Source: Phycisphaerales bacterium
Lineage (GTDB): Bacteria; Planctomycetota; Phycisphaerae; Phycisphaerales; UBA1924
Length of the DNA: 64,000 nucleotides
NCBI GenBank assembly: GCA_029260395.1
Contig: JAJDDJ010000001.1
Span: forward strand, 310,001-374,000
Reading direction: 5' to 3'
The translations under genes were made by a program, and so were the position numbers. Shown here one piece after another: positions 31,756 through 34,512 of the stretch (within the stretch, counting starts at the first letter, position 1; each line of letters begins with the position of its first letter). The notes beneath the pieces are model-generated. The model was not told the DNA's origin, made no database searches, and saw nothing but the letters and a program-made list of their open reading frames with translations.

Positions 31756-33126
31756 TTACGGGCAGGGCCCAACGAGCCCGAGCAGCGCGAGAAAGTCGCC
31801 GAAGCTCACCATGCCGTCTGCGTCCAGAATGCCGAAGTCGTCGGCGATGTCGCCGTCGCAGCCGGGCGTGCCGCCGGGGCACGGCCCGACCAAGCCGAGT
31901 AACGCGAGGAAGTCACCGAAGCTCACCATCCCGTCACCGCCCAGCGTGCCGAAGTCGTCCGCGATGTCGCCGGGGCAAAGGTTGGAAAGGTCGAACACGT
32001 ACGCTAGCCCGGAGTTTTCGCCCGCGTTGTCGTCGCGATACGCCCCAACAAGGGCTGTGCTGCCATCAATCGCCACGGAGATCCCGAAGTTGTCGCCCTC
32101 CGCGGCATCTGACGCGGCGAGCTTGAAGAGCTGCTGGCCCGTGCTTGTGTCAAAAAGATACGCAGAGCCCCCGCCGTCGTCACCAGACACACCGATGATA
32201 GCTGTAGTGCCTGAAACGGACACGGAACTGCCAAACTCGTCACGAGCCTCGCCATCTGACGCAGTGAGCTTGAAGAGCTGCTGGCCTTTGGTCGCATCGA
32301 AAACGTAGGCAGAGCCTGAGGCGTTGCCCAGATCATCGTCCCACGATGCCCCGACGATGGCCGTGCTGCCGGATATGGCCACGGAGGAGCCAAACAGGTC
32401 ATCCCATGTGGCATCGGATGCGGTGAGCTTGAACAACTGCTGGCCCGTCGTCACATCGAAGATATAAGCAGATCCCACAATATCGTTGCCAATAGCTCCG
32501 ACGATGGCCGTGCTGCCGGATATGGCGACGGAGTAGCCGAACATGTTGAGCTCCGCGGCGTCTGACGCGGTGAGCTTGAAGAGTTGCTGGCCCGTCGTCG
32601 TGTCGAAAATGTAGGCAGAGCCGGTGCCGAGGCCCGCGTGACCGTCCCACCATGCCCCGACGATGGCGATGGTTCCGGAGGTGGCCACGGAAAAGCCAAA
32701 CTGGTCACCCGAGGTGGCATCGGACGCGGTGATCTTGAAGAGCTGCTGGCCGGTCGTCGTATCGAACACGTACGCCGAGCCCTCGTTGGTGCCCGCGTGG
32801 TCGTCGAGCCGTGCCCCGACGATGGCTGTGGTTTGAGAGATGGCCACCGAGCAGCCAAAGAAGTCATCAGCCGCGGCATCGCCGGCGGTGAGCTTGAAGA
32901 GCTGCTGGCCGGTCGTCGTATCGAACACATACGCCGAGCCCTCATTGGTACTCGCAAGGTCGTCTCGCCATGCCCCGACAATGGAGATGTTGCCGAAAAT
33001 GCTCACCGATACGCCAAACTCATCCCGCATATCTCCGTCGTTTGGTAGTAGCTTGATGTGTTCGGTCAGTTGTCCGCTGGCAGCGGTGGCCAAGCACAGA
33101 GCGATAGTCGTACAGACTTTCGTCAT
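31756..33126 (-). CDS. Secreted seven-bladed FG-GAP-like propeller with two dockerin-like C-terminal repeats
   Basis: A 456-residue protein with a signal peptide (MTKVCTTIALCLATAASGQ). Seven repeats of about 49-53 residues follow, each with AIVGA...GSAYVFD and TTGQQLFKLTASDA...FGSSVAIS, predicting a seven-bladed beta-propeller. The C-terminus holds two almost identical 32-34 residue segments, each with DGMVSFGDFLALLG and ending VGPCP, like the dockerin/EF-hand-like tails of Phycisphaerae secreted proteins. AGAGGAG precedes the ATG. It probably acts at the cell surface or outside. It converges with putA, only 6 bp apart. Confidence 0.9.
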   Translation of the reverse strand: MTKVCTTIALCLATAASGQLTEHIKLLPNDGDMRDEFGVSVSIFGNISIVGAWRDDLASTNEGSAYVFDTTTGQQLFKLTAGDAAADDFFGCSVAISQTTAIVGARLDDHAGTNEGSAYVFDTTTGQQLFKITASDATSGDQFGFSVATSGTIAIVGAWWDGHAGLGTGSAYIFDTTTGQQLFKLTASDAAELNMFGYSVAISGSTAIVGAIGNDIVGSAYIFDVTTGQQLFKLTASDATWDDLFGSSVAISGSTAIVGASWDDDLGNASGSAYVFDATKGQQLFKLTASDGEARDEFGSSVSVSGTTAIIGVSGDDGGGSAYLFDTSTGQQLFKLAASDAAEGDNFGISVAIDGSTALVGAYRDDNAGENSGLAYVFDLSNLCPGDIADDFGTLGGDGMVSFGDFLALLGLVGPCPGGTPGCDGDIADDFGILDADGMVSFGDFLALLGLVGPCP

Positions 33127-33206
33127 CGCGGGCTCCTCTGGGGCTTGGTTCTCCAGCTTACCCGAGGCGGCAGGCCCGGCTCAAGGGTTGTTTGGTCGCT
33201 TTGATG

Positions 33207-33416
33207 GGGCATCCGGGCTGCCTGTTGCCCCATGAGGCCCCCCGGATGGAGGAGTTGGTGCCCCTTTCGGAGCATCAGGGCCACCGGATAGAGCATCAGG
33301 CCAGCCGGATGGAACATCAGGTCCACCGGACAGAGCATCAGGCCAGCCAGATGGAACATCAGGTCCACCGGATGGAGCATCAGGCCAGCCCGATGGAGCA
33401 TCGGGTCAGCCGACCA
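33207..33416. repeat. 21-bp tandem repeat upstream of the propeller gene
   Basis: Seven well-kept 21-bp units occupy 33270-33416, each beginning GAGCATCAGG or GAACATCAGG and ending near CCGGATG. Two sub-types alternate, giving a 42-bp higher-order period. Decayed units continue to about 33207. Twenty-one bp is two helical turns and seven codons, so both strands read as 7-residue repeats in one frame. The block ends about 80 bp upstream of the propeller start codon. Confidence 0.85.
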
Positions 33417-33500
33417 CGGGCGTGGGTGGATTGGATTGACTTGTTCTGGGAGCGATCGGCAGGATTCGCCTAACCAACCGAGCGAGCGGGCCGATCTGTG

Positions 33501-33716
33501 TCAGCTTGCTTTGGTCATCTCGCGGGCGGCTTCTTTGGTGCCGGCGTTCATGAGCCGTTCGCCCTGCTCGGGGGTCATCGAGCCCTCGGCGATGTAGGCC
33601 GCGATCTCGCGCCGGCTGCGCTCGCGCTGCTTGTTCTTGTCCGCCCAGCCGATCAGGCCCAGGAATACAGCGACCAGCGCGATGCCCCCGAACACCATGT
33701 AGACAAAGTTCTCCAT
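33501..33716 (-). CDS. Small membrane protein, 71 aa, SHOCT-like tail
   Basis: A 71-residue protein starting MENFVYMVFGGIALVAVFLG, with one transmembrane helix, then a charged segment and EIAAYIAEGSMTPEQGERLM, a helix-Gly-helix resembling SHOCT or PspB-like cytoplasmic tails. The open frame extends upstream to 33824, but the hydrophobic start favours the internal ATG at 33716. TACAGC lies 6 nt before this ATG, close to the leaderless pattern. The function is unknown. Confidence 0.65.
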   Translation of the reverse strand: MENFVYMVFGGIALVAVFLGLIGWADKNKQRERSRREIAAYIAEGSMTPEQGERLMNAGTKEAAREMTKAS

Positions 33717-33884
33717 GAGAAAGCTGTAAGCGTTAGGTTCTTGCACGAGGTCTCTCCAGTCTGGTCGGATTGGTTCAGGGATCGGCCCGAGATAGTTGCA
33801 GCATGCCCGAATTCGGGCGGCCACGCAAGTATTGGGGACCTGGCATGCAGGATTTCATATCGCAGGAGGCCTTGCGAAGCCTGT

Positions 33885-33923
33885 GAAAAAAGAAAAGAGC
33901 CGCGTGCTCAGGCACTCGGCTCT
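33885..33923 (-). terminator. Rho-independent terminator of the ribosomal-protein operon
   Basis: On the minus strand AGAGCCG (from 33923) pairs with CGGCTCT (to 33896) and is followed by TTTTCTTTTTTC. It lies just after rplI and ends the minus-strand operon. Confidence 0.88.
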
Positions 33924-33951
33924 GAAGGAGACTGGCTCGTAAAGCGCTGCT

Positions 33952-34512
33952 TTAGCCTTCGGCGGCAGCGGGCTCGGCTGCGGGCTTCTTCTTCTTGACG
34001 ACCATGTTGCCCTCGTTGTCGATCTCCATCTCTTCGCGCTCGTCCTCGACCTTGCGGTCGGCGACCACGTAGACCTTGACAGCGGTTTCGAGATCTGAAT
34101 CGAGCTTGACGGTGACATCGAACTCGCCGAGGTGCTTGATGCCGTGGGGCAGGCGGACCTCGCGGGGCTTGACCGCAAAGCCGAGCGTGTTGAGCGCACG
34201 GCTGAGGTCCTGCTGGGTGACCGAGCCGTAGAGGATGCCCTGGTCGTTGACGGCCCGCTCGAGGGTCATCTCAAGGTCGACCATGCGGGCCATAAGCGCC
34301 TCGCGCTTGCTGCGGAGGGCGGCCATGTCCTTCTCGGCTTGTGCGCGTTTGGTGGCGAGATCGGCGAGCTTGTCGTCGCTGGGTGTGGTCGCAAAGCCCA
34401 TCGGCAGCAAGAAGTTGCGGGCGTAGCCGGTGCGAACGCGGACGACATCGCCCACGATACCCAGGTTGTCGACGTTTTCGGTGAGGAGAAGCTGAACGTG
34501 CTTGGAGGCCAT
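33952..34512 (-). CDS. rplI: 50S ribosomal protein L9
   Basis: A 186-residue L9. The N-terminal domain is intact (LLTENVDNLGIVGDVVRVRTGYARNFLLP), followed by the long helix and the C-terminal domain (REVRLPHGIKHLGEFDVTVKL). A 30-residue extension ends in EG after a KKKK stretch. I chose the ATG at 34512, with AAAGGA 10 nt upstream. It is the last gene of the operon before the terminator. Confidence 0.96.
   Translation of the reverse strand: MASKHVQLLLTENVDNLGIVGDVVRVRTGYARNFLLPMGFATTPSDDKLADLATKRAQAEKDMAALRSKREALMARMVDLEMTLERAVNDQGILYGSVTQQDLSRALNTLGFAVKPREVRLPHGIKHLGEFDVTVKLDSDLETAVKVYVVADRKVEDEREEMEIDNEGNMVVKKKKPAAEPAAAEG

Follow-up and report, generated by a model that had tools for sequence, protein, structure and literature searches.

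The published literature has left open why some bacteria retain non-coding tandem repeats of fixed length and of any sequence. In the parts of their article cited here, Subirana and Messeguer (2021; PMC8161180) describe bacterial tandem repeats of constant size and variable sequence, 20-21 or 52 nt long, which are generally non-coding, have no explained function and occur in Bacillus and many other bacteria. The two DNA turns of the 20-21 nt class are noted there, and a polymerising protein or small RNAs are proposed for the constant-size repeats. An earlier survey by the same authors (2019; PMC6749651) and a further article (PMC8625621) are also cited. Here, we analysed an array of 21-bp units found in a window (the whole stretch of DNA analysed) of 64,000 nucleotides from a Phycisphaerales bacterium. 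Array-bearing and array-free copies of one promoter block within this genome give a handle on constant-length repeats.

The array and its copies in the genome

The features around the array, all on the minus strand, are as follows.

31756-33126, minus strand: gene for an FG-GAP repeat protein of the beta-propeller type (FG-GAP_2, PF14312, E 1.1e-117), whose N-terminus resembles a signal peptide by eye
33133-33137, minus strand: AGGAG, read directly, which we take to be the likely ribosome-binding site of the FG-GAP gene
33153-33185, minus strand: promoter-like block CTTGAGCC...GGGTAAGCTGG
33186-33206, minus strand: promoter-proximal element CATCAAAGCGACCAAACAACC, in the register of the array and immediately before the -35, common to other promoters of the genome
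33206-33268, minus strand: three decayed units with the register kept, on the promoter-nearer side (from rows of 21)
33269-33415, minus strand: seven well-kept 21-bp units of alternating sub-types with a 42-bp period (from Tandem Repeats Finder, rows of 21 and unit identities)

Laid out in rows of 21, the array occupies 33206-33415 as ten 21-bp units, one base off the range given by the first-pass annotation, with decayed units starting at 33206, 33227 and 33248 and the first good unit at 33269. Tandem Repeats Finder returned 33269-33412 at period 21 (6.9 copies, 79% matches) and 33269-33407 at period 42 (3.3 copies, 90% matches). The good units are 0.73 identical to their neighbour and 0.87 to the next but one, indicating that the two sub-types are real, and their alternation explains why the 42-bp period outscores 21. 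Lags 21 and 42 gave identities of 0.61 and 0.69 over 33186-33420, compared with only 0.26-0.29 at lags 20, 22, 41 and 43; the consensus unit had 4 sites in the window at up to three mismatches against 0.00 expected. The earlier description of seven good and several decayed units in two alternating sub-types agrees with both analyses, and its placing of a two-helical-turn unit upstream of a surface-protein-like gene is borne out by the FG-GAP_2 match of the neighbour. The units are contiguous and no CRISPR-type unique spacers lie between them, and a CRISPR array was rejected on these grounds. Read on the minus strand, towards the gene, the A unit consists of CATCMGG, 4 nt, CCKGATG and 3 nt, an imperfect inverted repeat of 7+4+7+3 = 21.

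We then searched the genome itself (G000; 3.22 Mb, 23 contigs, 93% complete) with the window array and found five further places at the DNA level, among which L004/L068a holds a second unit type, B (TCGTGCG CTGC TTTACGR GAG/TCG). The B unit as query added two places and L071 added none. The search for other 21-bp arrays that the first-pass annotation had asked for thus yielded eight related array loci, the window's included, although units too unlike A and B could escape such searches.

Window array, C1:343.2k: A units
L062, C2:195.8k: B then A units
L067, C1:91.7k: A units
L068a, C13:364.4k: B then A units
L068b, C13:367.7k: B units
L069, C13:107.7k: decayed
L070, C17:28.3k: A units
L071, C13:446.7k: B units and a third type, C

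In L062 and L068a, B passes into A without a register shift. The palindrome CATCMGGNNNNCCKGATG has seven exact plus-strand sites in the genome, all seven within arrays, and 88 sites at up to two mismatches compared with 36 for a control. The B units at L071 9808-9885 are 98% alike in 3.7 copies, a recent expansion, and the L9 gene has at its 3′ end (33936-33955) a lone CTCGTAAAGCGCTGCTTTAG that resembles the B unit. A 400-kb sample of the same genome (C9/C18) held one non-21-bp repeat outside called ORFs (lags 10 and 19) and no array of 21-bp period judged non-coding; array density in another set, of 307 kb, is meaningless, as that set was picked around arrays and paralogs.

Unit length, palindromy and coding capacity

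A match to the array sequence was found in only one of the 60 relatives searched, none of which is of the same genus: 29 bp in G025, with no array there. In three of six other genera of the family, the sampled DNA contained arrays of the same period and unrelated letters, namely three unlike arrays in G024 (400 kb; L097 5864-6108, L097 9110-9267 with 42 bp only, and L113 13801-14021) and one each in G010 (80 kb; L165 11173-11548) and G023 (80 kb; L167 2189-2430). No 21-bp array was found in the samples of G015 (80 kb), G012 (80 kb) and G051 (40 kb), and the lag-21 signal of G012 is a 7-bp repeat (CATTGGG in tandem, L160 17603-17665). The lag-21 signals of G036 (four in 400 kb) and G056 (four in 40 kb) are not classable by the ORF filter, because it miscounts open-framed arrays, including those of the window, L067, L068a, G024 L113 and G010, as coding. 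Several same-length families thus stand side by side in one genome (A, B and C in G000, the three unlike arrays in G024), and since the relatives keep the period with other letters, spacing is testable apart from sequence. The array at G024 L097 9110-9267 lies between divergent open frames and alternates hairpin units (GCCGSTT GGA AASCGGC CCCA) with 21-bp units unrelated to them, and the array at G010 L165 11174-11602 is open in one frame with ALNALLH heptads.

In 15 regions hand-picked as arrays of 21/42 period, identity was 0.44-0.79 at lag 21 and/or 42 (G024 L097b peaks at 42 only) and at most 0.38 at lags 20, 22, 41 and 43; at the 139 unit junctions of 17 arrays, with borders set by hand, there were 1078 mismatches. 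Unpicked lag scans also turned up other periods, and repeats outside called ORFs in other genera include 7-, 8-, 12-, 81-bp and other periods, which speaks against a claim of 21 bp only.

Searches further afield gave less. A one-pattern scan of a collection of 84,980 species returned four stretches, two of which are long palindromic 21-bp arrays of 10.2 and 19.9 copies in one Treponema MAG (L054 2680-2893 and L055 5486-5925), one of them in the spacer before an argD-like frame; the other two, L052 and L053, are isolated sites with no array at the match. Because the search pattern fixes arms and layout, this likeness is selected and may quite possibly have arisen by chance, and common descent was dropped as a claim. 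The same kind of one-pattern search of viral contigs gave no matches. A conserved 71-aa neighbour protein is present in 29 of 41 genomes, our own included. No array beside it was established in relatives among the 30 loci retrieved; lag-21 signals outside our own locus occurred at two, L176 and L177, and looked coding-like by eye. An FG-GAP-like gene lies near this protein in L177 and in a second locus of our own genome, L204.

The units are also palindromic, a feature that the first-pass annotation did not mention: in 300 column permutations per period, the score of the window array was reached twice at P=21 and once at P=42. Scores above permutations (at most 5/300 at P=21) were obtained for all five A arrays, L068a B, G023 and both Treponema arrays, and for G024 L097b at P=42 only. 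Palindromy was weaker in L071 C (6/300 permutations reaching the score), L071 B (10/300), L062 B (23/300) and L068b B (34/300), weak in G024 L113, where it was not seen at P=21, and not above permutations in G024 L097a or G010.

Such palindromic units would suit an RNA element, in which a transcript of the array would fold into successive hairpins with 7-bp stems and 3- or 4-nt loops. The minus strand of the array indeed folds better than shuffles (z -2.65, 1/200 as good), and L067 alone has an excess of 3-nt-loop pairs (71/84 with G-U, reached by 4/2000 shuffles). However, the plus strand is unremarkable (z -1.41, 22/200 as good), and the best minus-strand fold pairs distant units instead of forming one hairpin per unit. 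Arm-pair covariation over the five A arrays showed no excess with either a 3-nt loop (171/252 pairs vs 169.7 in shuffles) or a 4-nt loop (187/287 vs 190.6), and a pair excess over all arrays is confounded because A and B units are mixed. Moreover, the promoter-like block is downstream of the array, and Rfam matched two tRNAs only in the window, with no match at the array. We consider an RNA element unlikely.

A further suggestion of the first-pass annotation was that the array could be what is left of a gene encoding a repeat peptide. In five pooled A arrays (6 window, 6 L062, 10 L067, 9 L068a and 8 L070 units, with two decayed L070 units excluded from the column count), the columns at 1 mod 3 varied most (0.49 vs 0.25 and 0.28; max-class p 0.009), as third codon positions would in a gene encoding a heptad-repeat peptide. 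The matching frame is free of stops in L067, L068a, L068b and L071, and two window frames have their most variable positions third: a minus frame open over 33405-33184 (74 codons) without a start codon, and a plus frame open over 33236-33436, whose first start, at 33422, is outside the array. One repeated unit yields an open frame anyway, and the open frame is therefore not independent evidence. Against such a gene, the matching frame carries three stops in L062 and one each in L070 and at the distal edge of the window array, and the codon-like pattern is absent from the B arrays (p 0.94). When 17 arrays were tested singly, only L062 A fell below 0.05 (p 0.008), and the pattern is lacking in the two other window frames, of 92 and 93 aa, which contain starts. 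The repeat-peptide gene was rejected as highly improbable on the lack of a start in the relevant window frames, the L062 stops and the patternless B arrays. Judged from its sequence, the window array is probably non-coding, because the frames with the most variable third positions have no start codon within it. A 92-aa minus-strand frame (33123-33401) runs through the array and overlaps the FG-GAP start codon as ATGA, probably by chance.

Register with a promoter-like block

The block preceding the FG-GAP gene, CTTGRGCC...GGGTARGCTGG, was matched 12 times across the genome when up to three mismatches were allowed, and a reversed control pattern 0 times. We inspected the promoters at these 12 copies and two more, L069 and L057. 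A sigma-70 and terminator consensus scan of 33000-33900 gave no matches. The 21 bp before the block start with CATCAAA in five promoters (window, L062, L058, L061 and L093), with CCTCAAA in L068b and with CATCACA in L057; in L069, CATCAAA is displaced by one base and the block is poor, with 11 mismatches.

In the window, A-sites (up to three mismatches) lie 42, 63, 105, 126, 147, 168, 189 and 210 bp from the -35, all eight at 0 mod 21. The same phase holds for 6/6 A-sites of L062, 42 to 147 bp from the -35; L058 has one A-site at 42 bp and L056 a weak one (3 mismatches) at 105 bp. B-sites lie at 13 mod 21 from the -35 in both L062 (4/4) and L068b (9/9). Out of phase are the single A-site of L093 (20 mod 21), a lone B-like site of L059a (18 mod 21) and the sites of L069 (20, 20 and 19 mod 21), where the shifts of one or two bases are partly alignment offset. 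Neither A- nor B-sites were found at promoters L057, L059b, L061, L065, L087 and L094. Since site counts vary in this way, unit number differs between promoters of one genome, the block-bearing ones carrying none to about ten units.

By pattern, three of the eight arrays abut the block (window, L062 and L068b), and a fourth, L069, does so by eye; no block was found by pattern search beside L067, L068a, L070 and L071. The earlier suggestion of a regulatory array is plausible given the exact register between the window array and the promoter-like block, and does not extend by pattern to most of the other arrays. The shared phase of promoter and array may itself reflect common descent and is thus not independent proof of function. 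The genes after L068b (DUF7453), L067 (Chlam_PMP repeats) and L069 (no Pfam family above the cut-off) have secreted-like starts by eye. In the array-free FG-GAP paralogs L057, L059, L061 and L065, the same promoter-like block is preceded by CACAGAGACACAGAGGGCACAGAG-type repeats.

Possible origins and known repeat classes

We favour, with a probability of about one half, a non-coding satellite of constant period (21/42 bp) that would act as a platform aligning a protein on one face of the DNA and tuning the promoter. We infer that the array would have grown outward by tandem duplication from the promoter-proximal 21-bp element, and that unit length would be held because two helical turns put each unit on the same DNA face. 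A protein recognising an inverted-repeat or shape feature might line up along that face beside RNA polymerase, and might perhaps tune FG-GAP expression, more strongly with more units. The one layout of the eight arrays, the B-to-A change in register and the 21-bp promoter register are consistent with such a platform, as are the unit length kept amid many mismatches, the 12 block copies, the shared period of unlike units in G024, G010 and G023 and the evidence against coding. On the other side, the phase was possibly copied along with the promoter, the window and L062 arrays being 83% alike over 119 bp; four arrays (L067, L068a, L070 and L071) are without the block, and the sites of L069, L093 and L059a are out of phase. 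Palindromy does not exceed permutations in some arrays, the A arrays show no covariation, and arm sequences differ between arrays, so that no single sequence-specific binder fits all.

The main rival, which we regard as a serious possibility short of an even chance, is a neutral, self-perpetuating satellite spread by unequal exchange and slippage from one ancestor per genome, with no effect on genes; unit length would then stay because only in-register copies recombine. The freely drifting unit sequences, the recent expansion of one B array, the absence of the array sequence from 59 of 60 relatives, the varying unit number among block-bearing promoters and the four of eight arrays where no promoter block was found all agree with neutrality. 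The same 21/42 period in unrelated arrays of other genera argues against it, as descent from one array fails unless a mutational mechanism prefers 21 bp. The platform reading could also be widened, more doubtfully, to a cis-regulatory architecture in which a lineage-wide protein would read spacing and inverted-repeat shape over letters, and promoters of surface-protein paralogs would set their output through units gained or lost outward from the -35. If true, this would account for a period that is kept while the sequence is free.

From its letters, the window array fits the class of constant-size 20-21 nt non-coding tandem repeats. We found constant length, several families per genome, species-specific sequence (no same-genus genome being among the 60) and non-coding character, the last judged on the window array and the L062 stops, with a weak codon-like pattern in the A units. 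In the parts of PMC8161180 cited here, the repeats likewise have a period of 20-21 nt, are generally non-coding and species-specific, and form same-length families unlike in sequence within one genome. In contrast, ours have periods of 21 and 42, mostly palindromic units, an in-register change of family and a register with a promoter block, and the main text of PMC8161180 does not contain palindrom-, promoter, hairpin or planctomycet-. We found no report of such arrays in this group, or of a promoter register, in the open-licence library searched.

Variable-number tandem repeats near genes are short tandem units upstream of a gene, whereas here many unit sequences share one length. REP elements have a RAYT transposase as a further feature. 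As described in the part of PMC3733652 cited here, they resemble our units in being short extragenic palindromes and differ in that ours occupy few loci, head to tail without other spacers. With regard to REP-type end tags (GTAG or CGTC), no GTAG was seen by eye in the A units, and the B units have CGTC, though not as a clear end tag. What is clearly added beyond the known class is the promoter register, together with the differences in unit number among promoters sharing one block. Elsewhere in the genome, at many loci, about 75 C-terminal residues (GDIADDFG...DGMVSFGDFLALLG, twice) end many different proteins as a shared C-terminal module.
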